From a virus, in the IMG/VR virus record IMGVR_UViG_3300028557_000085, positions 1 through 39,948 of that record: 39,948 bases of DNA; one strand, 5' to 3'. Every line of letters begins with the position of its first letter. The stretch's first letter is position 1. Positions 1 to 39,948 of the stretch are shown piece by piece. The notes beneath the pieces are model-generated. The model was not told where the DNA came from, searched no databases, and was given only the letters and a program-made list of their open reading frames with translations. A program made the translations under genes and the position numbers.

Positions 1-914
1 AATGCGCCACCGTCTAACGGCCTCCACATAGACCCGCCACTTATTGCTGTTGCCCCTAAACGAAGACCAAGTCCAGCAGCGTTAGCCGAAGAACGTGTTC
101 CTGTGTAAAACGCTAAAGACGGCCCAAATTTTGGGCCGCGATTTGCGGCAACGGAGGTTCCGCTGTTTACCAACTGCCACAAACCTAGCCCCTCCATGCC
201 AAACCAGTAAGTCGTCTGCATCTTCGTGCGCGGGTTCGCCAACTCTCGGCCGACCAAATCCCGAGTCATCAAACTCGCCGCACTATTCGCCGTCTGCGAA
301 GGCGCAATGTTGCCCACGCCGTTTAGGGTGGCGTTGCCGTCGATGGTGACGTTGGTGGAGAAGGTTGTGGGGTTTGTAAAATAGTTGTTTGTAAAGGCGA
401 TATTCGCTGCGGTTAACGTGCCGTTGATGGTGACGTTTGTCTCAAAAGTGGCGGCGTTACTGACTCCGAGGGTTCCGGTGGCCGTGATGTTGCCGAATGT
501 GACGGCGTTAGTTGTGCCGAGGCCGAGGTTCGTGCGGGTCGCTGCGGCGGCGGTGTTGGTGTTAAAGCTAATGCCGCTAGACGATACAATTACAGTGGTA
601 CCAAAAGCTGCCGTTTCGGCGTCTAATTCATTTACCGTGATATCATCAAAAATACTTGTGGCCGAACTCGCGCTGTTTGTCACAATTAAACCATCGCCTC
701 CGCCACTTGATAGATTGATTTTAACTGTGCGAAACTCCACATGGTTAGTCGTCCCAAGGCCGATGGCCGTAGCCGCCGCAGCAGCATTTGTTGCCGTGAG
801 CACCGCACGTCCGGTCGCCGTGGCGTCCGTGATATTGACCGAGGTCGGCGGGTTGTCGATCTGGCCGTAGGCGGTGCCGGCGGCCAGCAGTAAAATGGTG
901 AGCAGGCGGTTCAT
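1..914 (-). CDS. fibre-like protein with signal peptide, copy A (partial, runs off the left edge)
   Basis: The gene starts at ATG 914 and stays open for 304 codons to base 1, so its 3' end lies outside the window. The N-terminus (MNRLLTILLLAAGTAYG, then QIDN) is a Sec-type signal peptide without a lipobox cysteine. It is followed by Ala/Thr/Asn-rich repeats around TRTNLGLGTTNAVTFGNIT and two TNVTI(N/D)G units, then an MTRDL segment and a distinct C-terminal domain with TTYWFGMEGLG. Low-complexity N/T/G repeats followed by a variable C-terminus are typical of phage fibre or receptor-binding proteins. A signal peptide on such a protein is odd and might mean export or a host-surface role. The gene lies 2 nt downstream of the 105-aa gene. 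The first 38 residues and the central repeats match the complete gene at 37602-38765, but the C-termini are unrelated. Receptor binding is inference. Confidence 0.7.
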   Translation of the reverse strand, partial: MNRLLTILLLAAGTAYGQIDNPPTSVNITDATATGRAVLTATNAAAAATAIGLGTTNHVEFRTVKINLSSGGGDGLIVTNSASSATSIFDDITVNELDAETAAFGTTVIVSSSGISFNTNTAAAATRTNLGLGTTNAVTFGNITATGTLGVSNAATFETNVTINGTLTAANIAFTNNYFTNPTTFSTNVTIDGNATLNGVGNIAPSQTANSAASLMTRDLVGRELANPRTKMQTTYWFGMEGLGLWQLVNSGTSVAANRGPKFGPSLAFYTGTRSSANAAGLGLRLGATAISGGSMWRPLDGGA

Positions 915-916
915 TT

Positions 917-1234
917 TTAGATTCCTTCTTTGGCGACGAAGTCCTTGGCAGTGCTGCTGCAACGCAAAAACACTCGTTGCGATGGCACCCAGGCTGAATT
1001 AAACGTCACGCTGCCGCCGGGCTGCACTTGGATGCCGTTGAGTTCCGTGGCTGCTTCTCCGAAGTTGATGCGCATGAGCGTGTCGCTGATGTTCTGGAAC
1101 ACCAGATAGGTGCGCGACTCGTTGGCCGGCATGACCGACTGCACTCCGAGGGCGGCAGTGGTAACGGCGGTTTCGGTGCTGTGATCCAGCACATTGCCGG
1201 TGGATGGTTTAGTTTTTACGTTAGGGAATGCCAT
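917..1234 (-). CDS. small putative virion protein, copy A (105 aa)
   Basis: This 105-aa protein has no signal peptide or membrane segment. Its centre (RTYLVFQNISDTLMRI, then a PGGSVTF turn and a WVPSQ strand) looks like one small beta-sandwich domain, as in phage decoration or fibre-base proteins. It sits between the adaptor-like gene and the fibre gene, and its stop (TAA) is 2 nt before the fibre ATG, so the two are probably made together. The homologue at 38768-39085 is roughly 80% identical, with differences clustered in residues 14-35 and 57-68. No Shine-Dalgarno is visible; the start is preceded by AAACCT. The function is unknown; a virion role comes from context. Confidence 0.7.
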   Translation of the reverse strand: MAFPNVKTKPSTGNVLDHSTETAVTTAALGVQSVMPANESRTYLVFQNISDTLMRINFGEAATELNGIQVQPGGSVTFNSAWVPSQRVFLRCSSTAKDFVAKEGI

Positions 1235-1250
1235 AGGTTTTAGTAGTTGG

Positions 1251-1871
1251 TTAGTATTGCGAGACCTGCGCGGACCACCGGCGGGTTTGCTTTTGCTGGA
1301 AGGTGAATTTCTCGGTCTCCTTGACGATGCTCAGTTCGGCCCGGCCATACATGACCTGCGCTTTGTCGATTTGTCCGTCCTCGGTCAAAAGGTCGCCGGT
1401 GAGGGAGAATTTGAGGTAGTCGGCCAAAATCTGCGGGACCGTCTGCGCGAGGGCCGTGGCGAGCACGGTCGATATGACCGTGGCGGGCAGCCGGAAGCGA
1501 ACGTAGATGGTGTCGGGGCAGTCGCTCGGCAGGCGGATCTTGTCTAAGTCGAGGGAGAAGTGGATCTCGCGGGGGGCGGCGTGGGTGTGCGGGTTGTCTT
1601 GGTAGACCGAGAACACATCGCCGATCTCGGGTTTGTCGACCTGCGCCAGATCAAGATAGATGTCCTCGTCCACGCCGGTCTGGGTGGTCCGCTCTTCGGT
1701 GCGCGTGAGGTCGGGCCAATCGTAAAATTCCCACGCATCCCGAAGGTGCGAAGAAAGGTTGTCCACCATGATCGTCTTGGTGGTCGTGGGCAGATTGTCG
1801 ATGCTGCTGCCATCCAAGCCAGCGCGGCTGGCGGCGTTGGTCACGATGCTGGAGACGGTCACGGTTTTCAT
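1251..1871 (-). CDS. head-tail adaptor-like protein, copy A (206 aa)
   Basis: The start chosen is ATG 1871 (MKTVTVSSIVTNAASRAG), which overlaps the stop of the 92-aa gene as TAATG and matches the start in the second copy. An upstream extension in frame would overlap that gene completely and is rejected. The N-terminal helical part (SSIVTNAASRAGLDG, WEFYDWPDL), a beta middle and the helical end (LADYLKFSLTGDLL, QVMYGRAELSIVKE) resemble the adaptor/gatekeeper proteins that dock under the portal in short-tailed phages (T7 gp11 or P22 gp4 type). Its place a few genes after portal agrees. The assignment rests on pattern and context. It is nearly identical to 39102-39722 apart from patches near residues 70-110. 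Confidence 0.6.
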   Translation of the reverse strand: MKTVTVSSIVTNAASRAGLDGSSIDNLPTTTKTIMVDNLSSHLRDAWEFYDWPDLTRTEERTTQTGVDEDIYLDLAQVDKPEIGDVFSVYQDNPHTHAAPREIHFSLDLDKIRLPSDCPDTIYVRFRLPATVISTVLATALAQTVPQILADYLKFSLTGDLLTEDGQIDKAQVMYGRAELSIVKETEKFTFQQKQTRRWSAQVSQY

Positions 1872-2149
1872 TACGCGGCCTCCTTGATCACGATGATCTG
1901 CGCGGCCTTCCCGGCGAAGGTGTAGTCGCTGTCGCGGTTGACGTTGCCAGCAGCCGACCGGACGTAGACGCCGGGCGAATGCCGGTTGTAGAGCGGGATG
2001 CCGGAACCAGCCAGAACACGCCAAGCCGAGCCAACCGGCGCCGAGGAATCCAGCGGCAGGTCAGCGTAGGTGCCCACCTCGCGGGCCAGCGGCGCGGTGG
2101 CCGATGGTGCGCTGGGAGCAAAGCCGCCGGTTAGAGCGTTGTAGGTCAT
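1871..2149 (-). CDS. small virion-associated protein, copy A (92 aa)
   Basis: This 92-aa protein (MTYNALTGGFAPSAPS...) has a Pro/Ala/Ser-rich N-terminus. A compact domain follows (GTYADLPLDSSAPVGSAWRV, then GVYVRSAAG and DYTFAGKAA). This looks like the small beta domain that phages often encode beside head-fibre or adaptor genes. It starts 1 nt after the 77-aa gene ends and its TAA overlaps the adaptor ATG, so the genes form one translational unit. In the second copy (39719 to the window end) the stop is shifted by one codon, giving an extra Gln. No specific function is recognised. Confidence 0.65.
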   Translation of the reverse strand: MTYNALTGGFAPSAPSATAPLAREVGTYADLPLDSSAPVGSAWRVLAGSGIPLYNRHSPGVYVRSAAGNVNRDSDYTFAGKAAQIIVIKEAA

Positions 2150-16384: not shown

Positions 16385-17208
16385 GCGGCTCCCTTCATGC
16401 GGTCAGCTTGCAGGGCTTCCAGGGCGAGCATGCGGCGTTCGGCCTCGGAGGGCTGCACGGGTCCGGTGCGGGGGATGTGGAGGACTTTGGGGGCGTCCTT
16501 GAGGCTGTCGAGGAAGACGCCGCGCCAGCCGTGCTTGACGGACTTGCGGAGGGCTTCGACGGCGTTGGCCTCGTTGACGGCGGCCAGATCGGCGACAATG
16601 CGCTGGGCGGCGGTTGGGGTTAGGGGAGCCTTGATCTCTCGGCGGTGTTGGGCAAACTCGGCCCAGGCATTGGCGAGGCCGGCGCCGTGGGGCAGGGAAA
16701 TGGTGGCGGGGTCGAACTTGGGCGGCTTTGGACGCGGAACTGCTACAGGGGAAGAAGAAGGGAGCGAAGGCTGCGAAGCGGCCGGAGCGGGCGCGTCAGC
16801 GTCATTACTCTTTCTTAATGTTGTCTTATAGTTGGGGTGACGCAGCGTCACCTGTACAGAGGACGCTGTGTCACCTGTACAAGGGACGCTGTGTCCTAGA
16901 TGACGCTCTGTCACCGGTGACGCTGCGTCACCCATACCGGTAAACTGATAGACGGCAGCCATGCGCATACCGTTCTTGATGCGTGCCGTATTGACCCTGC
17001 TGATGTAGCCGCCGGCGATCAGCCGGTTGAGAATGTCAGTGATGCGCCGGGTGCTGATGCCGGTCATTTCGTGGAGCTTGTTGCGGCTGGCAAAGACGCC
17101 GCGGTCCTTGGCTAGGTCTGCCAGGGCGACCAAGACAAACTTGTCGCGGGTTGGCAGCTTCTGCGCGTAGGCGTATTCGCGCTCCGGTTTTTGGCGCTTT
17201 GGTTCCAC
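16381..17208 (-). CDS. winged-helix replication-initiator-like protein (275 aa)
   Basis: The N-terminal winged helix (about residues 15-95: KFVLVALADLAKDRG, then ISTRRITDILNRLIAGGYIS) is like phage replication-initiator (lambda O/DnaT-organiser) proteins. A Pro/Ser/Ala linker (about 130-165) leads to a C-terminal helical domain (LTPTAAQRIVADLAAVNE, ALRKSVKHGWRGVF), the common FxxSVxxGWxG-type end of helicase-loading proteins. The start is GTG 17208, overlapping the upstream TAG as TAGTG. Five iterated repeats lie within the gene just after the winged-helix part, exactly as lambda's origin lies in gene O. It probably binds them and loads the DnaB-like helicase. Confidence 0.75.
   Translation of the reverse strand: MEPKRQKPEREYAYAQKLPTRDKFVLVALADLAKDRGVFASRNKLHEMTGISTRRITDILNRLIAGGYISRVNTARIKNGMRMAAVYQFTGMGDAASPVTERHLGHSVPCTGDTASSVQVTLRHPNYKTTLRKSNDADAPAPAASQPSLPSSSPVAVPRPKPPKFDPATISLPHGAGLANAWAEFAQHRREIKAPLTPTAAQRIVADLAAVNEANAVEALRKSVKHGWRGVFLDSLKDAPKVLHIPRTGPVQPSEAERRMLALEALQADRMKGAA
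16838..16930. repeat. five iterons around (T)GACGCxGxGTCa; candidate replication origin
   Basis: Repeat cores begin at 16839, 16862, 16885, 16902 and 16919, spaced 23, 23, 17 and 17 nt. The outer copies are perfect inverted repeats (TGACGC-A/T-GCGTCA, 16838-16850 and 16918-16930); the inner ones are diverged. The first two share a CACCTGTACA spacer. An A/T-rich stretch (16803-16833) adjoins one side, as expected of an unwinding element. The array lies inside the initiator gene. Confidence 0.7.
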
Positions 17209-23604: not shown

Positions 23605-23898
23605 TTAATCCGGTAGTTCGACCCGCTGATCCATGGTCGCGTAGTGCCGCTCAGTCGTTGAGCTGGTCGTGTGCCCGAGGAACCTTGAGACGGTGCGCAG
23701 GACCGAGCTATCAAAAAGGGTGCCGTAAACGTCGGTTATTGTGTATAGCCATTGACGTTTCATAAATGCCGCGCGGCCCATGGCGAGGTTGGTCTTCTGC
23801 GAGGCCGGCGCCAGCTGTGTCTTGCGCAGGAAGTCCGAGACCAGCTTCCGGTTGAGGCGGGTGAGGGGAAGCGCGCGGAGTTTCTCCCGGTCGGTCAC
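23605..23898 (-). pseudogene. C-terminal remnant of a tyrosine recombinase/integrase (97 aa)
   Basis: Phage integrases join attP to attB through a catalytic Tyr. Here only a C-terminal piece is left. It ends with VSRFLGHTTSSTTERHYATMD, in which the LGH histidine and the nucleophile-position Tyr are visible. The N-terminal and central domains are missing (an in-frame TAG lies a few codons before GTG 23898), and the usual HxLR box is not recognisable (NLAMGRAAFMKRQW in that place). It is therefore almost certainly inactive. It lies beside a tRNA-Thr fragment, the normal setting of int next to its attachment site. This implies descent from a temperate phage. Confidence 0.65.
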
Positions 23899-23951
23899 AC
23901 GGACCCTTACAAGCGCCTACAGAACAGCCTTTACAGAGTAACTTTCCAGAC

Positions 23952-23990
23952 GCCGGTATAGCTCAGCTGGTAGAGCACCTGATTTGTAAT
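23952..23990 (+). other. 5' half of a tRNA-Thr(UGU) gene: relic attachment site
   Basis: GCCGGTA (acceptor), TA, GCTC-AGCTGGTA-GAGC (D-arm), A, CCTGA and the loop TTTGTAA with anticodon TGT follow the bacterial tRNA-Thr pattern for 39 nt. They stop one base into the 3' anticodon stem; no T-arm or 3' acceptor (TACCGGC) follows. The break in the anticodon arm is where many integrases cross over. Confidence 0.65.
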
Positions 23991-24224
23991 AAGCTGCTGT
24001 GCCCAGCATTCATGCGGGTCTTCGAGGGGCGTGGCTGGCGGTGTGGCAAGGCACTCCTCTGTATTCCGATCATGCAACGCCGCACGTCATTCTGCGCAAA
24101 TGTCCCGCGAGAACACTTAGTGGTAATGACGAAGCCCGCCGTAGCGGGCTCCGAGTCTCCTGCACCGCGCTTGGCGGGGGAGCGTTAAGCTGTCTCTGCT
24201 TCCAGCTCCCGGTCCAATGCCGTG
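23991..24224. other. non-coding stretch after the tRNA fragment
   Basis: No convincing gene is seen. It contains a 7-bp hairpin AGCCCGC-CGTA-GCGGGCT (24133-24150) that lacks a U-tract on either strand but could still end transcription of the large virion gene (minus strand). No tRNA 3' half is present. Confidence 0.4.
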
Positions 24225-27200
24225 TCAAAGCACGCCACCTTGTCCATGAGCTTGCCCTCGCGTCACCTTGCGCGTCTTTTTGCGGGCGCGGGCAGAGAAC
24301 TCGGAAGCTGTTTGCTGCTGAGAAAATTGTTTTTGCAGGATAAGGTTTTCTCCTTTTTTTGTAATTTGCGCTTGGAATATGCGAAAAACTCCATCTTCGC
24401 CCCTGTCTTCGGAAGACACCTGCTTAATTGTCGCCAAGCCACGCCTCTCAAGGGATTTCCAAACTCCAACCGCTTCTATTTGTGCAAAAGATTGCGTTGT
24501 TACACCTTTTTTGCCCATTGCCTTTGATGCATACAAAAGTTCCAAATATGCAGTTCTTCCGCTTCCTTTTTTAAAAGATTGGCTCCATTGAATAAACGGA
24601 TAAGTTTCGGCGTTTTGCAAAGCAAAACCGCCATTTTTAGTTTCAAAAATATCCATGTAGTCCGAAGAATCTCGGCCGCCATAATTTTTTGATTTGTTTT
24701 CTTTCCACAAAGACTTCGGATCTTTCGACACTCTTGGGTCAGGTTTTGCTAAATCGTCCACGCCGCCGAGGTAGCCTTGGTTCTCCTCGTACTCGCGGAG
24801 CAGGCGGTCGGTGTCGAGGGTGCGCACGGGGGCCACCTCCGGCATCGCCTGCCCGCGGGTGCGGCCTGTTGCTGCACCTTGCGGAGGTCTCGCCGCCGAC
24901 ACAAAGATGTCGTCAGGATTGTCCACCAGCCACAGCTTCTTGCCGTCAATGTCCATCGTCTTCGGGTTGCGCAGATACGCCTCGACGACCACCGGGTTGG
25001 CTGGCTCGTTGACCTGCTTGGCGGCGTCACGCAGGCGAGCGGCGAGATCCTTGGGGGTGCGCTTGGCGAGGTCATTGAAGTAGCTGGCCAGTTCGTCCAT
25101 GTCGTCCACATAGCGCACGTTGAACTCTGGCAGTTCGCTGACATCAGCAAACTCGCGCAGCTTTAGGCCAGCCTCCATGCGGGCGCCAAGGTCGCGCATC
25201 ACGTCATTGGCGCTGTCCACGGCAGCCTGCGCCGAGTCGATGGGCGCGGCAGCATAGCCGTCTGCGGAGGCGACATCGTCACTGAAAGAAAAGCCGCCGC
25301 GGGAAATGCCCGAGCTGCGGGCGCGATACTTGGGGTCGAACTTGCGTCCCTTGAAGTCGGGCGAGCCGTGGTAGACCGGGCCGACCAGCCCTCTGCGGCG
25401 CGCTTCGTCTGGCGTGATGGTGATGTCCGGCATAGCCTGTCCACGCACCTCCGGCATCGCCATGCCAGCCTGCGGGAGGGCGCTGGGCATGCGGTTGTTG
25501 TTGATTTTGTCGTAGTCGAAGAAGTAGCCGGTGCGGCCGGTCGGCTTGGCATCGTTGAGCCGGTCCACGCGCCAAGCACGGATGCTGCCGCGCGGGTTGA
25601 GGTCCGAGTACAGCGGGTTGGCTGTGCGCTGCACTGCGGTGCCGGTGCCGATGAGGCCGTTGAGCATGTCCCGCTTCTGCTGTCCGATGGTCATCTCGCC
25701 GGGCCTGCCGTTGCGGTGGTTGGCGAGGTAGGTCTTGAGGTCGGCCTCCACCTGCCGCATGTCGTTGTTGAAGAGCCCGAGGTCGCCCTTGTTGATCGCC
25801 TTCATGGCGGACGCGCGGAAGGCGTTGAGGTCAAGCGAGGCGGCGAGCAGGTGGTTGGCCTTGGTCACCTGCCAGCCAAACGGCACGGTCTCGCGCTGGA
25901 TGGCGCGCACGTTGCCCAGGTTGGTTACGCGGTAGCGTCCCGAGGCTCCGGTGCCGATGGCGTTGTAGTCGATGTCCCAGCTGCCGCCCTCGGCGCGGCT
26001 TTGCTCCATGGAGCGGGCAAACTCGCGGACGTGCTTGGGGAAGTTGGTGAAGAAGTCGAACTGCGGCGGCAGCACCGGCCCTCCGACCACCTCGCGGCCG
26101 TTGACCTTGCGTTTGCCGAACTCCTGCGAGTTGACCGGGACAAACTTGCGCGCATCGTAGAGCGTCTTGATCTGCGCGCTGCGGGCGTTCTCGGTGAGGT
26201 TGACCGTCTCCTGCGCCTTCATGGTGTAGGTGCCGTCTGGGCGTTGAACCATGAAGTCGTTCTCCAGGACTCCGTTGCCCTCATCGCGCAGCTTCACATG
26301 CGTGCTGCGGGCCAAGTCCTCCGGCTTGCTGCTGCGGGCCAGCTCCACGCCGCGCAGCTCCTTAGCCCCGGCTTCCTCGAGGCCGGCGAGGTACTGGTCG
26401 TAACTACGCACGTACTCACGCACCCGCTTCTGCATGATGCGGTCTTGGAAAAGAGGATTGTCGCGGAAAAGCACCGAGGGGCTGTCCATTAGCTTGCCGG
26501 TGCCCGGGTCAAGGCGAGCGCCCATGACCTCCAGAACGCGCCCGCCGGCCGACAGCATGGACTCGGCGAGGCGGGGGAACAGTGCGTCACGGCGGACGGC
26601 GCGGAAGTCGATGGCCGGAGCCTCGGAGGCGAACGTCTCGGCGATGATCTCGTCGCGTGCCCAGTCCAGCGCGTCCTCGCCCTTTTCGATGCTGCGCTGG
26701 GAAAGCTCTTCGACACGCTGGTCAATAAGACGCTGCCGCGCCTGCTCAGAAACCGGCTGACCCTTCAGCACGTCCGCCAGCGTTGTCTTGCCGCTGGATA
26801 CGTCATTGATCTGCGCCTCAGTCAAGTTGACCGGGGCGTCCTCGATGGCGCCGACCAGGATGTCATTGTCCACCAACCGCGTTGCATATTCCCTGCCGCG
26901 CGCCGCCACACCGTCCGTTGCATACTGCTGGTTGACTAGGTTTCGCAGGTCATTGCGCGGCTGACCACCGAGGATGTCGCTAGTTAGGATGGCGTGGCCG
27001 ATTTCGTGCGGGACAATGCGCGTGGGCGACAAGTCCTGCGCCAGTCGTTGGTTTGCCGACACCGTGTCTCCCGCCTTGACCAGCAGCCGGATGCCCTGTG
27101 GCACATGCGTTGAGTCCACCGTGCCGTCCGCCGCGGTGATGTCGATTACGTTGCCGCCCTTGTCCGCGTCCGGCCTTACAGACACCTTGCCGTCCACCGG

Positions 27201-29183
27201 AGCCGTGTGCCCCATGTTGACAAAGATCCTCGCCGATCCGTTTGCGTCCTTTTCGATGTAAAGGCCCGCCGCCGTCTCGCCGCCCTCCGCGCGAAGGTCG
27301 GTGTTGGCCCGGTAGTCCTGGCCGCGGAGCGGGATAAATTTGACCTTGTTGCGCAGCACGCCCTGCATGGCCGCCAACCGCGAGAGGCTGTCGTGCGAAA
27401 GGGACATGAGGGACGCCGCGTCGCCATTGCTTTCAGTCACATCGACCAGCATTCTGGCGATGTCGGCGTCCACTTCAGCCGGCCGCCTACCAAAAGCCCT
27501 TGTCGCCGTCCCCGCCAGCGTGCCCAGCATCACGGCGCCGCCCACAATCTGACCGCCCTGCTCGGCATCGGGAGCCACCAAGGCAAATGGAGCCGCCGTA
27601 AGCCCGGAGACCACAGCGGAACTGACAGCGTCATCCGCTAGCCGAAACGCCTGCGTTGCGCCCAAGTTGTTTGCCGTGCGCGACAGCCGGCGCAGCATCT
27701 GCGGATTCTCGGGGTCTTGCGCTACGCGCCGCAGGGTGCTGTCAGCAGACGCTCCGCCGGGCCGCATATGGCGGGCGTAACGCTGGGGGAAGGCACCACT
27801 GCCGGCCATCGCTTGCGCGGTTTCAGCGCCCGCAGCACCCGCACCACCGGCGCCCATCTCGCGCACGATGGCGTAGCCACCGCCTGCCGTTGCGCCAGTG
27901 CGCCTCAAGATCGCCCCGCCAAATTTCATGATGGGCAGGATCGAAAGCACGCCCGTGGCCACGCCGCCCAATGCCGCCGGCGCGCCTTGGCCCTGAGTGC
28001 TCAAATAGCCCACGCCACCCGTCAGGGCAGTCGCGGCCGCCGTCTGCTGCATCGCGTTCATTCCCGTCAAATCCTGCACCCTGTCCGTGATCCGCATCGC
28101 GCTACGCTGTAATGCGTCGGCGCCCGCATTGGCCACCTCCCCAGTCATCTTGAGCGGCACGCCCGTGATCGACGACAGGCGGCGCAAGATACGCACCTTG
28201 GATAGTGCGCCCGCACCGACCGGCAGCAAGTTGTCAGGAGCCAAAGCCATCGACCCTCCGGTCGCCAAAGCGCGCTGCGGCTCCATCACCTCGCCGGTGA
28301 TCGGATTAGTCGCCCGCGCCTCACTGCTCTCCTGCGTCACCGGCGTCTGGCCGATGCTAAAATTTCCTACGCCCGCAATTTCACGGTCAAAGTTCTTGCC
28401 GCGGCGGTAGTCTTCAAACGCCTGTTTGACATCGGCGTTCTCCTCCAGCGGAGTCGGCGCCGTCTCGCCGCGTTCTTTAGCTGCGGCAAACTCGCGATTG
28501 ATGATCTCGATGTCTCCGCGCAGGTCGCCCGACAGCTTTCCCTCGGCCTGCAGCTTTTGGGCGATGACGCTGCGCACCTGCTCCTGACGGCGAACGTCTG
28601 TGGCGTGATCGCGCGCCGTGTTGCCGATCCAGTCAACGAGTTTGGCGAACTCAAGGCCCGCCTTGCGGCCCGCCTCTTTGAGTGTGACGAAGTTCTGCGT
28701 AGCAAAGCGGTCTGGCCGATAGAAGTTTGAAGTGGCGTTGTCCTTCAGCTCTTGGCCCATCTCTGCAGTCAAAGACACCAGCCCTTGGCCAGCCGCCACC
28801 GCCCCATCCACAAAGCTGCCCACCGTATTCTTCTCCTGCTGCCTGCGCGCATGCACTGGAGCAAACTCCTCGAAAGGCATCTCGTAGGATGGATCGTAAT
28901 AAAGGTTGTCATCCTGCGCATTCAGCTCCGCATCTGTCAGCGGCTTGGGCGGCTCTCGGAAGTCTGCCTGCGGAGGCTGCGGCGCCGACTGTGGCATAGT
29001 CTTCTGGCCGAAAGGCGTGGCCTGCATGAGACTGTCTGACGTGGCGCGTTGATCCATCTGCGCGTCTGTCATCGGCACAGCGGCCGGCGACTCAAGCACT
29101 CTAGCGGCAGTTCCGTAAAGATTCTGCCGCGCCTCCATCTCGTCCATTGCGTCGAGCTGGGCGTCTGTTAAGCCTTTTGCCAT
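24225..29183 (-). CDS. very large internal virion/polyvalent protein with metallopeptidase and ADP-ribosyltransferase-like segments (1652 aa)
   Basis: This is probably an ejection-type virion protein delivered with the DNA. The N-terminus has short DAQ(L/M)DAM-type repeats (about 1-100) and a helical part. A Gly/Ala-rich hydrophobic stretch at about 310-460 could insert in membranes, as in internal virion proteins. RIVPHEIGHAILTSD (HEIGH at 726-730) is a zinc-metallopeptidase motif. VYHGSPDFKGRKFDPKYRAR and GGFSFSDDVASADGYA (about 1265-1320) match the ART-PolyVal type of ADP-ribosyltransferase, and GQAMPE/D linkers separate modules. The last part (about 1480-1625) is clearly A/T-richer than the rest. 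Combining peptidase and ART modules in one giant chain is typical of phage polyvalent proteins. Activity is inference. Confidence 0.7.
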   Translation of the reverse strand: MAKGLTDAQLDAMDEMEARQNLYGTAARVLESPAAVPMTDAQMDQRATSDSLMQATPFGQKTMPQSAPQPPQADFREPPKPLTDAELNAQDDNLYYDPSYEMPFEEFAPVHARRQQEKNTVGSFVDGAVAAGQGLVSLTAEMGQELKDNATSNFYRPDRFATQNFVTLKEAGRKAGLEFAKLVDWIGNTARDHATDVRRQEQVRSVIAQKLQAEGKLSGDLRGDIEIINREFAAAKERGETAPTPLEENADVKQAFEDYRRGKNFDREIAGVGNFSIGQTPVTQESSEARATNPITGEVMEPQRALATGGSMALAPDNLLPVGAGALSKVRILRRLSSITGVPLKMTGEVANAGADALQRSAMRITDRVQDLTGMNAMQQTAAATALTGGVGYLSTQGQGAPAALGGVATGVLSILPIMKFGGAILRRTGATAGGGYAIVREMGAGGAGAAGAETAQAMAGSGAFPQRYARHMRPGGASADSTLRRVAQDPENPQMLRRLSRTANNLGATQAFRLADDAVSSAVVSGLTAAPFALVAPDAEQGGQIVGGAVMLGTLAGTATRAFGRRPAEVDADIARMLVDVTESNGDAASLMSLSHDSLSRLAAMQGVLRNKVKFIPLRGQDYRANTDLRAEGGETAAGLYIEKDANGSARIFVNMGHTAPVDGKVSVRPDADKGGNVIDITAADGTVDSTHVPQGIRLLVKAGDTVSANQRLAQDLSPTRIVPHEIGHAILTSDILGGQPRNDLRNLVNQQYATDGVAARGREYATRLVDNDILVGAIEDAPVNLTEAQINDVSSGKTTLADVLKGQPVSEQARQRLIDQRVEELSQRSIEKGEDALDWARDEIIAETFASEAPAIDFRAVRRDALFPRLAESMLSAGGRVLEVMGARLDPGTGKLMDSPSVLFRDNPLFQDRIMQKRVREYVRSYDQYLAGLEEAGAKELRGVELARSSKPEDLARSTHVKLRDEGNGVLENDFMVQRPDGTYTMKAQETVNLTENARSAQIKTLYDARKFVPVNSQEFGKRKVNGREVVGGPVLPPQFDFFTNFPKHVREFARSMEQSRAEGGSWDIDYNAIGTGASGRYRVTNLGNVRAIQRETVPFGWQVTKANHLLAASLDLNAFRASAMKAINKGDLGLFNNDMRQVEADLKTYLANHRNGRPGEMTIGQQKRDMLNGLIGTGTAVQRTANPLYSDLNPRGSIRAWRVDRLNDAKPTGRTGYFFDYDKINNNRMPSALPQAGMAMPEVRGQAMPDITITPDEARRRGLVGPVYHGSPDFKGRKFDPKYRARSSGISRGGFSFSDDVASADGYAAAPIDSAQAAVDSANDVMRDLGARMEAGLKLREFADVSELPEFNVRYVDDMDELASYFNDLAKRTPKDLAARLRDAAKQVNEPANPVVVEAYLRNPKTMDIDGKKLWLVDNPDDIFVSAARPPQGAATGRTRGQAMPEVAPVRTLDTDRLLREYEENQGYLGGVDDLAKPDPRVSKDPKSLWKENKSKNYGGRDSSDYMDIFETKNGGFALQNAETYPFIQWSQSFKKGSGRTAYLELLYASKAMGKKGVTTQSFAQIEAVGVWKSLERRGLATIKQVSSEDRGEDGVFRIFQAQITKKGENLILQKQFSQQQTASEFSARARKKTRKVTRGQAHGQGGVL

Positions 29184-30649: not shown

Positions 30650-30948
30650 AATGTTATTTCTTTCTGTTGTGTGATTCCTGCCGCTTGTCGCGCCTCAAGG
30701 CACAGCGCTGATCCCGGCACAAACGCGCGGCAGGCATTCGGTCGGTTGTTGTAAATTGAGCAGCCCACATCGCAGCCGACCCCGCCGGTCAGTGCCACGC
30801 ATCTGCTGTTGGTTGTCTTCATCAGTGGGTAGTCATCTCGCAGCATCCATTGCGGGATGCCAGCAGCGTCAGATCGGTCTCGTCGCAGGACAGGCCAGGA
30901 CCACTTGTGAGAGCAGCAGGCGCCGCATCGTTGGCAGTCGTATTCCAT
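30646..30948 (-). CDS. YkgJ-family cysteine-cluster protein (100 aa)
   Basis: The start MEYDCQRCGACCSHKW holds the CxxCxxCC cluster of the YkgJ (metal- or Fe-S-chelating) family. Further Cys follow in CVALTGGVGCDVGCSIYNNR with RPNACRAF, also family-typical. The start codon is fixed by the motif at residue 5, so its first 127 nt overlap the end of the PAPS-reductase-like gene in another frame. It is coupled to the 160-aa gene by ATGA. The biological role is unknown; pairing with the sulfur-chemistry gene suggests a shared function. Confidence 0.75.
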   Translation of the reverse strand: MEYDCQRCGACCSHKWSWPVLRRDRSDAAGIPQWMLRDDYPLMKTTNSRCVALTGGVGCDVGCSIYNNRPNACRAFVPGSALCLEARQAAGITQQKEITL

Positions 30949-31778
30949 ATTGGTTTGAAGCCCAGGTCGGGGAAGACCATGTCTTCATAGGGCGCGTGAT
31001 GACTTACGTTGCTGACGGTAGCCGCCAACTTTGGACAATGAACGTGCCGCCCTTGGTGCCGGTCCACGCAGTTGAAGCAGATGGGGTAAAAGTCAGCGTT
31101 GAGCGATTTGTCGGGATTGTTGCCCCAGCTGCCTTCGCGTTTTACATACCGCGTCGGATCAGCCGCCACTCCTTCGGTCTCCAAATATTCAAACACGTCC
31201 TCATCAGACCAGTCTCTGATTGGGTAAAGGCTGGCCGGCATTCCGTCCACGCAGCGAATATCCATTGCCAGCGGGATCTCGCCCTTGATGAGATCGGTGT
31301 CGCCGCCCTTGGTTCCGACAAACATTGCAGACCATGGAAAGTCAAACGTGCCGGTTGGCCGGCTGAGAAAGTCCTTGACGGCACAAAGGTATTTCCCGCT
31401 TTCTAGCTCAGACTCAGTGGGGCGCTCGGTGCCCAAGGTGAGGACCGTGGCGGCGCTTCCACACTGGTAGTATTTCAGCATGTCAAAGCGGACTTCTCCC
31501 GTTTCAACATCCGGGCCGTCCGCTATGGCAACCCTGGAGGGCGCGTAGTCATAAACCTCCAAGCCCCACTGCTTGATAAGCTCGTCGCTGTATGCGTAGC
31601 GCTCGCGGAATTTTGGCTCGCGGTATTGTATGACCGGCAAATCAATACCTGCCTTAAATTTGAGAACGTGCAGAAGCGCTGTTGAATCTTTTCCGCCACT
31701 CCACAAAACGGCAGAGTTTGGCCACCGTGCATGCCAAGCGCGCATCTTTTCTGCCGTCTTTAAGACAAGGTTTTTCAT
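30822..31778 (-). CDS. PAPS-reductase-like PP-loop ATPase (318 aa)
   Basis: SAVLWSGGKDSTALLHVLKF (about residues 22-41) has the PP-loop SGGKDS for adenylation. LPVIQYREPKF, then FVGTKGGDTDLIKGEIPLAM and LYPIRDWSDEDVFEYLE follow the PAPS-reductase/DndC order. Cys residues lie in YPICFNCVDRHQGRHVHCPK, perhaps for metal or Fe-S. Such genes in phages may serve sulfur metabolism or DNA phosphorothioation; no other dnd gene is present. The start overlaps the upstream TAA as TAATG. The last 42 codons overlap the YkgJ gene and may have been acquired by read-through. Confidence 0.75.
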   Translation of the reverse strand: MKNLVLKTAEKMRAWHARWPNSAVLWSGGKDSTALLHVLKFKAGIDLPVIQYREPKFRERYAYSDELIKQWGLEVYDYAPSRVAIADGPDVETGEVRFDMLKYYQCGSAATVLTLGTERPTESELESGKYLCAVKDFLSRPTGTFDFPWSAMFVGTKGGDTDLIKGEIPLAMDIRCVDGMPASLYPIRDWSDEDVFEYLETEGVAADPTRYVKREGSWGNNPDKSLNADFYPICFNCVDRHQGRHVHCPKLAATVSNVSHHAPYEDMVFPDLGFKPIWNTTANDAAPAALTSGPGLSCDETDLTLLASRNGCCEMTTH

Positions 31779-37605: not shown

Positions 37606-38765
37606 GGGGCAAAAAACACGGCATTATTTAGTCCGACAATTTCAAAACTTCCGCCAGTGTTGGTGGAGAGGCCGACTAGTCCAAACGTAAAGCAGGTTTG
37701 GTTTGTCGAAGCAACCATAGGGCCGTTGCTATATGTGACAGTGGCGTTTGTTGGTTTCTGTAAGGCCGCGCTAGTTGCGGAATTTCTTTCGGCATAATAA
37801 ATGTCGCCCGTCCCGTTGGTTTTGTGGTCAATCCACAAACCGAAGCCTAATGGCGATGCCGAAGTGGTAATTGTGGCGGCGTTGGTTGTGACTACATTTG
37901 CCTTGGAAACTAGAACTTCAGCGTTGGTGGCATCAACCCAGTTAAGAGCAACCCAATGGCCATTGGTGGGCAGATCGTTGTCGCCTGCGCCAGCGCCAAA
38001 AACCAAAAAAGCGCGCGCAACGTTGTTGGTTACTTGGTTCTTGGCGCCCATAACAGCTAAACTCATTGGGCGAGACCAATCTATACCAAAGGTTCCCTCC
38101 GTTCCGTTCCACGGCCCTTGCCTGTTGACTCTGACCGAGGCAAAGCTGTTGGTGCTTCCATTTACAATCCTCACATTGATTCGACCTTCGGTAATGGGGC
38201 CAGCGTGGACAGCGGTTCCGGGGCCGCTTATATGCGAGGCCATAGCGTATGCCAAATCTCTAAACCGATTCGGCGCGTGCATAATGTAGTCAACCATGCG
38301 CGTGTCGGTTAAATCCCGCGTCATCAAACTGTCCGCACTGATCGCCGTCTGATGCGGTGCGATGTTGCCCACGCCGTTTAGGGTGGCGTTGCCGTTTATG
38401 GTGACGTTGGTGGCGAAGGTGGCGGCGTTACTGACTCCGAGGGTTCCGGTGGCCGTGATGTTGCCGAATGTGACGGCGTTGGTTGTGCCGAGGCCGAGGT
38501 TGGTGCGGGTGGTGGCGGCGGCATTGCCAGAAAACAGAATACTTCCCTCATCCACAAAAACCGTGCCAGCATCCACTTGGACAAACTGAACGTGATTCCA
38601 CTCCCCAAGGCCGATCGCCGTAGCAGCCGCCGCAGCATTGGTCGCCGTGAGCACCGCACGCCCGGTCGCCGTGGCGTCCGTGATATTGACCGAGGTCGGC
38701 GGGTTGTCGATCTGGCCGTAGGCGGTGCCGGCGGCCAGCAGTAGGATGGTGAGCAGGCGGTTCAT
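37602..38765 (-). CDS. fibre-like protein with signal peptide, copy B (387 aa)
   Basis: The start ATG 38765 begins the signal peptide MNRLLTILLLAAGTAYG; an upstream in-frame extension would overlap the 105-aa gene and is rejected. The same repeats as copy A follow (TRTNLGLGTTNAVTFGNIT, NATLNGVGNIAP), but one TNVTING-to-TNVTIDG unit of 28 residues is missing, and the segment near residues 45-75 differs. The C-terminal half is unrelated to copy A. It has FRDLAYAMASHISGPGTAVH, INVRIVNGST, LSLAV-type strands and GGSFEIVGLNNAVFF, a beta-rich fibre head. Two alleles with a shared base and swapped tips strongly suggest a receptor-binding protein. It ends with an ATGA overlap. Confidence 0.7.
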   Translation of the reverse strand: MNRLLTILLLAAGTAYGQIDNPPTSVNITDATATGRAVLTATNAAAAATAIGLGEWNHVQFVQVDAGTVFVDEGSILFSGNAAATTRTNLGLGTTNAVTFGNITATGTLGVSNAATFATNVTINGNATLNGVGNIAPHQTAISADSLMTRDLTDTRMVDYIMHAPNRFRDLAYAMASHISGPGTAVHAGPITEGRINVRIVNGSTNSFASVRVNRQGPWNGTEGTFGIDWSRPMSLAVMGAKNQVTNNVARAFLVFGAGAGDNDLPTNGHWVALNWVDATNAEVLVSKANVVTTNAATITTSASPLGFGLWIDHKTNGTGDIYYAERNSATSAALQKPTNATVTYSNGPMVASTNQTCFTFGLVGLSTNTGGSFEIVGLNNAVFFAP

Positions 38766-38767
38766 CT

Positions 38768-39085
38768 TTAGATTCCTTCTTTGGCGACGAACTTTTTGGA
38801 TGTGCTGCTGCAACGGACAAAAAGCTCCTGCGATGGCACCCAAGCAGCATTGAACGTCACGGAGCCACCGGGTTGCACCTGAATGCCTTCGTCGTCCGAG
38901 GCGGTTTGTCCAAAGTCGATGCGCATCAGCGTGTCGGAAATGTTCTGGAACACTAAGTAAGTCCGGCTTGCGTTAGCGGGCATAACTGATTGCGTGCCAG
39001 CGGCTGCCGTGGTGACGGCCGTGCTGCTGCTGTAGTCAATGACATTGCCGGTGGATGGTTTAGTTTTTACGTTAGGGAAGCCCAT
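38768..39085 (-). CDS. small putative virion protein, copy B (105 aa)
   Basis: This is the homologue of 917-1234 and the same length; MGFPNVKTKPSTGN, RTYLVFQNISDTLMRI and PGGSVTF are shared, while residues 16-33 and 57-68 differ. It lies 2 nt before fibre copy B. The function is unknown. Confidence 0.7.
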   Translation of the reverse strand: MGFPNVKTKPSTGNVIDYSSSTAVTTAAAGTQSVMPANASRTYLVFQNISDTLMRIDFGQTASDDEGIQVQPGGSVTFNAAWVPSQELFVRCSSTSKKFVAKEGI

Positions 39086-39101
39086 AGGTTTTAGTAGTTG
39101 G

Positions 39102-39722
39102 TTAGTATTGCGAGACCTGCGCGGTCCATCGGCGGGTTTGCTTTTGCTGGTAGGTGAATTTCTCGGTCTCCTTGACGATGCTCAGTTCGGCCCGGCCATA
39201 CATGACCTGCGCTTTGTCGAGCTGACCGTCCTCGGTCAAAAGGTCGCCGGTGAGGGAGAATTTGAGGTAGTCGGCCAAAATCTGCGGGACCGTCTGCGCG
39301 AGGGCCGTGGCGAGCACGGTCGATATGACCGTGGGCGGCAGCCGGAATTTGACGTAAATGGTGTCGGGGCAGTCGCTGGGCAACCGGATCTTATCGAGGT
39401 CGAGACTGAACGCGATTTCTCTCGGGGCTGCGTGTGTATGCGGATTGTCTTGAAACACGCTAAACACGTCGCCGATCTCAGTCTCGCTGGCTTGCGCGAG
39501 GTCGATATAAATGTCCTCGTCCACTCCGGTCTGGGTGGTCCGCTCTTCGGTGCGCGTGAGGTCGGGCCAATCGTAAAACTCCCACGCATCCCGAAGGTGG
39601 CTGGCAAGGTTATCCACCATGATCGTCTTGGTGGTCGTGGGCAGATTGTCGATGCTGCTGCCATCCAAGCCAGCGCGGCTGGCGGCGTTGGTCACGATGC
39701 TGGAGACGGTCACGGTTTTCAT
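39102..39722 (-). CDS. head-tail adaptor-like protein, copy B (206 aa)
   Basis: This is the homologue of 1251-1871 at exactly 37,851 bases' distance and equal length. Most of the sequence is identical; patches at about 70-110 differ (LAQASETEIGDVFSV versus LAQVDKPEIGDVFSV). ATG 39722 overlaps the TGA of the 92-aa homologue. Confidence 0.6.
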   Translation of the reverse strand: MKTVTVSSIVTNAASRAGLDGSSIDNLPTTTKTIMVDNLASHLRDAWEFYDWPDLTRTEERTTQTGVDEDIYIDLAQASETEIGDVFSVFQDNPHTHAAPREIAFSLDLDKIRLPSDCPDTIYVKFRLPPTVISTVLATALAQTVPQILADYLKFSLTGDLLTEDGQLDKAQVMYGRAELSIVKETEKFTYQQKQTRRWTAQVSQY

Positions 39723-39948
39723 TGCGCGGCCTCCTTGATCACGATGATCTGCGCGGCCTTCCCGGCGAAGGTGTAGTCGCTGTCGCGGTTGACGTTGCCA
39801 GCAGCCGACCGGACGTAGACTCCGGGCGAATGCCGGTTGTAGAGCGGGATGCCGGAACCAGCCAGAACACGCCAAGCCGAGCCAACCGGCGCCGAGGAAT
39901 CCAGCGGCAGGTCAGCGTAGGTGCCCACCTCGCGGGCCAGCGGCGCGG
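39719..39948 (-). CDS. small virion-associated protein, copy B (partial, runs off the right edge)
   Basis: The frame runs from the right edge to TGA 39719, reading PLAREVGTYADLPLDSS to KEAAQ, nearly identical to 1871-2149 except the extra C-terminal Gln caused by a TAA-to-CAA change. Its start lies outside the window. Confidence 0.65.
   Translation of the reverse strand, partial: APLAREVGTYADLPLDSSAPVGSAWRVLAGSGIPLYNRHSPGVYVRSAAGNVNRDSDYTFAGKAAQIIVIKEAAQ

Follow-up and report, generated by a model that had tools for sequence, protein, structure and literature searches.

Integration through the 5' half of a host tRNA gene is a known minority mode. Of about 3,900 islands catalogued by Islander, 3760 carry a 3' tDNA fragment and 159 a 5' fragment (PMC4383910), in agreement with the remark in a first-pass annotation of the locus described here that most phages hold the 3' half. 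The 5'-half arrangement is both rare and poorly explained, because it separates the host tRNA from its own promoter. T7-like cyanophages, whose integration does not lead to stable lysogeny, rely on the first half of tRNA-Leu, and integration in this group (P-SSP7, S-TIP37) needs both the integrase and attP (PMC8776855). A 5' half is also used by archaeal pTN3-like integrases, with expression of the restored tRNA from the integrase promoter, an arrangement described as seldom encountered in bacteria (PMC8371274).

The DNA analysed here (the window) is a viral record of 39,948 bases, in which 39 nt of tRNA-Thr had been noticed beside an integrase remnant (Table 1). This match proved to be exact; it is the sole one in the window to the 5' half of tRNA-Thr at three or fewer mismatches, and 100 dinucleotide shuffles produced 0 such matches. 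The half ends one base past the anticodon loop. It agrees at 38 of 39 nt with the complete, ARAGORN-called tRNA-Thr of contig L032 and diverges from it at the very next base (AAGC vs CAGG). The complete tRNA-Thr genes of L032 and L025 served as tRNA reference only, because the L025 copy adjoins host-like genes and the clade integrase was not detected there. When the 5' half from the window is joined to the 3' part of a host tRNA-Thr, a tRNA-Thr(UGU) is called, whereas the window alone yields no call. That the fragment might be an unusual complete tRNA was ruled out, as ARAGORN and Rfam detected no complete tRNA in the window; nor was any tRNA-Thr found that continues after the half with the 3' extension seen in the window.

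An intact integrase, which the first-pass annotation had suggested seeking in relatives, is indeed present there: scanning with the remnant as query retrieved six contigs (L003-L008) whose matching gene encodes a full-length protein of 364 aa, and no integrase match was obtained among 50,697 phage records. All six contigs have the tRNA half in the corresponding position, next to the int start but on the other strand, and its boundary falls between TTTGTAAT and AAGCTGCTG exactly as in the window. No complete tRNA was found in these loci, and we found no relative with an intact gene at this place that lacked the tRNA match. Whole-length comparison of three of the contigs with the window showed them to be collinear with it for the most part, at a nucleotide identity of 66-89%. 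The dN/dS values of the intact genes (0.07-0.21) indicate that these are functional genes under purifying selection. Since the six relatives share the intact integrase, the half and its boundary, the tRNA half is the ancestral attP, and the temperate ancestor proposed earlier is thereby upheld. The other origin proposed at the time, a junction captured from a host chromosome when imprecise excision brought a host tRNA fragment into the phage, would account for a half that matches a real tRNA-Thr gene, and specialised transduction is a known process; it is, however, practically excluded given what the six relatives share, given that halves of six other tRNAs occupy the equivalent place in cousins, and given that the phage DNA on both flanks of the half is common to free relatives. 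Judged from the sequences, namely the attP and int conserved in relatives, the deletions described below and one integrated junction at a tRNA-Arg gene, the window is very probably a recently broken member of a clade of 5'-half tRNA integrators, its attP core nearly intact and its recombinase gone.

Table 1. Features of the remnant integration module (positions in the window; contig names refer to relatives described in the text)
Feature	Position	Strand	Remarks
Remnant integrase ORF, 97 aa, GTG start, no functional recombinase	23605..23898	-	
Piece B: codons 336-364 and stop, with LGH box and catalytic tyrosine	23605..23694	-	
Filler at deletion junction, 74 nt, foreign	23695..23768	-	
Piece A: codons 112-154, core-binding domain	23769..23898	-	92% nt identity to L008:5001-5130
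Deletion junction 1	23899..23905	.	448 nt of L008 (4553-5000) absent from window
Retained phage flank immediately upstream of tRNA half	23906..23951	+	holds TTTACAGAGTAA element (23930-23941), clade-conserved
attP core: 5' half (nt 1-39) of tRNA-Thr(UGU)	23952..23990	+	exact; boundary as in L003-L008
P' side of attP	23991..24048	.	conserved in relatives
76-nt insertion, window lineage only	24049..24124	.	between attP and conserved inverted repeat

The open reading frame next to the half had been read as the last 97 residues of an integrase, a reading that has to be corrected: it is a composite of codons 112-154, the 74-nt filler and codons 336-364 of the 364-aa protein, and its Pfam Phage_integrase match is weak (E 0.17). 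A tblastn search of the window with an intact relative recovered codons 112-158 (94%, 4e-22) and 312-364 (4e-14). The copy lacks a complete catalytic domain, codons 155-335 being replaced by the filler, and the window holds no further copy of this integrase family. Compared to L008, the 448 nt missing at the first junction hold repeated GCCACA/GGCACA P-arm motifs, the int start and codons 1-111; the second gap comprises a further 542 nt (L008 5131-5672) and is the one bridged by the filler, 44 nt of which (23725-23768) match perfectly the first nucleotides of a 74-aa reading frame in phage L009. Altogether, the window lineage has lost about 990 nt, including the catalytic core, the arm-binding domain, the int start and the P-arm repeats.

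The surviving codons differ from those of relatives by 4-13 synonymous and 0-2 nonsynonymous changes (4-8.5 and 0-1.5, respectively, for piece A against five intact genes), and this near-absence of amino-acid changes places the loss in the recent past. Two deletions with filler DNA recently destroyed the integrase of this lineage. Almost undecayed codons would also fit a deletion that is an assembly artefact, the window population truly possessing an intact integrase, and the divergent copies at the window ends suggest that strains were mixed in the assembly. Against this, a second contig (L002; IMG record 3300027728) contains the same three pieces, filler and insertion and is 100% identical to the window over 13.9 kb, and the 44-nt filler match and the 76-nt insert are each specific events that the relatives lack; an artefact is accordingly improbable. 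It is less probable still that the 97-aa frame now encodes a small protein with a new role, such as regulation of a recombinase: the frame does stay open through the filler and its pieces show few amino-acid changes, but half a core-binding domain followed by foreign filler and a C-terminal tail corresponds to no known fold, and a recent loss explains the low divergence equally well.

Left with an attP core and no recombinase, the window phage cannot integrate by its own integrase, and its lineage would consequently have lost lysogeny, provided that no helper integrase is supplied in trans. A relative's integrase might act on the window attP in this manner, or the half might serve as a homology patch; relatives with the same attP core do exist, and DNA has been exchanged with other phages close by (see below). 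Nevertheless, the P-arm repeats disappeared together with int, so that the window attP is itself probably crippled, and we consider continued use of the module unlikely. The recent loss of a functional integration module remains the preferred reading. The retained flank with its TTTACAGAGTAA element is a candidate tRNA promoter or recombinase/accessory site. On the P' side, the window has one GCCACA repeat and L003, L007 and L008 have two; past the lineage-specific insertion, 76 nt (24125-24200) are identical to L008. Slightly further, 497 nt (24269-24765) are 98.8% identical to phage L009/G017, which is otherwise largely unrelated, and this match reflects a recent exchange with L009-like phages at this position. 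A 1652-aa protein without PHROG match is encoded at 24225-29183; in the related phages the corresponding place beside attP is occupied by long reading frames of 1465 to over 2300 codons.

As for the remainder of the genome, its P22-like parts comprise a major head protein, a scaffold, a terminase, a DnaB helicase, an O-like replication protein, an exonuclease and a Gp2.5-like SSB. Matches of the terminase and tail proteins are limited to phage C75C1 and distant environmental phages, and no repressor gene was identified among the window proteins scanned. The two ends of the window (1-2097 and 38311-39948) are divergent copies (86-92%) of one stretch. Since contig L002/G010 continues directly from position 39948 into about 2100, a circular or circularly permuted genome of about 37.9 kb is likely, the initial 2 kb of the window being a strain variant. 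A PAPS-reductase-like protein (30822-31778; PF01507, E 2.3e-6) is a possible auxiliary metabolic or DNA-modification gene. Within the replication-protein region lies a 21-nt inverted repeat (GGGTGACGCAGCGTCACC; 16835-16855 and 16913-16933; loop of 57 nt) that is itself palindromic; it is a candidate origin or operator.

The intact relatives match integrase families PHROG 1 (E 1.3e-18) and PHROG 216 (E 2.2e-9), and Pfam PF00589 with E 4.5e-4, a match that falls short of the cut-off for that family. An AF2 model of the intact protein (mean pLDDT 82.5) displays arm-binding, core-binding and catalytic domains. Its best Foldseek matches are Cre, lambda Int, XerA and Tn1549 Int, with a TMt of 0.67 for the catalytic domain of P2 Int; whole-chain TM values are low because domain placement is uncertain. 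Profile matches and predicted structure both identify these proteins as tyrosine recombinases. Across 28 divergent members (L047-L115), the Arg I motif reads G-M-T-P-x-E (GLTPKE in one) with T224 invariant, and GMTPxE aligns with the GVR of the more distant L030 integrase. From these alignments, a threonine appears to stand where the catalytic Arg I is expected, and the motif departs from G-x-R; the assignment is based on L030 and on motif reading, because lambda and P22 Int, when compared with the clade by profile, aligned over N-terminal pieces only. In the same 28 members R320, H343 and Y353 are invariant, and the Lys, Arg II, LGH and Tyr elements are retained. The HxLR box is absent from the window, as the earlier annotation stated, but the intact relatives, too, read YxLR at this place, with Tyr for the first His. 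Despite these Arg I and His substitutions, the Thr group has a low dN/dS.

Querying with the conserved C-terminal region recovered 71 viral contigs with related integrases. A tRNA 5' half lies beside int in 61 of the 69 loci examined; in most of the remaining eight, a contig end interrupts the sequence near the integrase. Reading of the anticodon loops assigned the halves to seven tRNA types: Thr(UGU), Thr(CGU), Phe(GAA), elongator Met(CAU), a second CAU tRNA (Ile2 or Met), Arg(UCU) and Lys(CUU). The L030 integrase likewise carries a Thr half. tRNA type tracks the integrase tree, with 9 changes against 28.4 in shuffles. Identity to the tRNA ends at positions 38-41, that is at or just past the anticodon loop, where recombination would presumably proceed through a 7-bp overlap. 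In L069-L072 the loop itself differs, the half reading TTTGTTCTCAGG and not TTTGTAATCAGG, which reflects either a different host tRNA or an altered overlap. In most clades, a conserved TTTACAGAG-type element, T-rich or TACAGAG-like, is located 10-22 nt upstream of the tRNA. Neither a clear -35 box nor a clear promoter consensus was found upstream of the half, which speaks against a sigma-70 promoter; because its inverse lies downstream of the half in some clades, the element may instead be a recombinase or accessory site.

One contig, L105, represents the integrated product. Beside its int, ARAGORN calls a complete tRNA-Arg(UCU), whereas only the half is present in the free phages L106 and L107; the homology of L105 to L107 ends precisely with the final base of the 5' half, after which the host 3' half continues, followed by antiporter and MFS-transporter genes (names read from translations). 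In the acceptor stem, the phage GCTCCCG pairs with the host CGGGAGC, so that the tRNA-Arg is rebuilt from a phage 5' half and a host 3' half. Only phage DNA lies upstream of this tRNA, with the int frame starting about 70 nt off; any promoter driving it would thus have to be phage-borne or situated within int. The IMG number assigned to L105 (2737471655) has a format that we take to denote, probably, an isolate or single-cell genome. This single contig, from a different subclade than the window and with one junction only, constitutes the evidence for integration. As regards the Thr clade of the window, two GTDB scans detected no prophage, an Erwinia match spanning only 15 residues, and 398 Pseudomonadota genomes scanned were also empty, a weak test that shows little. 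By extension from L105, integration of an intact Thr-clade phage would join its 5' half to the host 3' half to give a complete tRNA, which would then be transcribed from phage DNA, because its upstream neighbours are phage sequence and the divergent int.

More broadly, we propose, tentatively and at somewhat less than even chances, that the clade is committed to tRNA 5' halves and re-targets while keeping this polarity, that its lysogens put an essential tRNA under a phage promoter, and that its integrases need no canonical Arg I. Having at least seven tRNA targets and an example in the integrated state, the clade makes transcription of the rebuilt tRNA testable, and it also bears on how integrases change target while polarity stays. 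If Arg I is truly absent, the mechanism of catalysis becomes a puzzle. The window itself would capture a recent step from a temperate-capable to an integrase-less phage that has kept its docking site, and forms with its relatives a useful before/after pair.

Several described systems share part of this organisation. In the cyanophages attP is downstream of int and a single tRNA-Leu target is used, whereas attP in the window clade adjoins the int start and seven tRNA types are involved (PMC8776855); this comparison is made apart from the integrase sequences. The archaeal pTN3-type integrases have the use of a 5' half in common with the clade, but integration divides their gene into int(N) and int(C) (suicidal integrase), whereas here int stays whole beside attP. 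Mycobacteriophage anticodon-loop integrases are likewise tyrosine integrases with a crossover at or near the anticodon loop and a tRNA rebuilt at one junction; these phages supply the 3' half, of which the window clade, supplying the 5' half, is the mirror image (PMC10865867). In the tRNA-dependent lysogeny of Fionnbharth, a host tRNA gene is also the integration site, but the core is of ~10 bp, the tRNA is not rebuilt and a whole tRNA is carried by the phage (PMC10865867), whereas in the window clade a ~39-bp half rebuilds the tRNA and there is no phage tRNA gene. Within the literature searched, what appears to be new is a clade in which every complete locus examined follows the 5'-half mode, across seven tRNA types and with a non-canonical catalytic motif.
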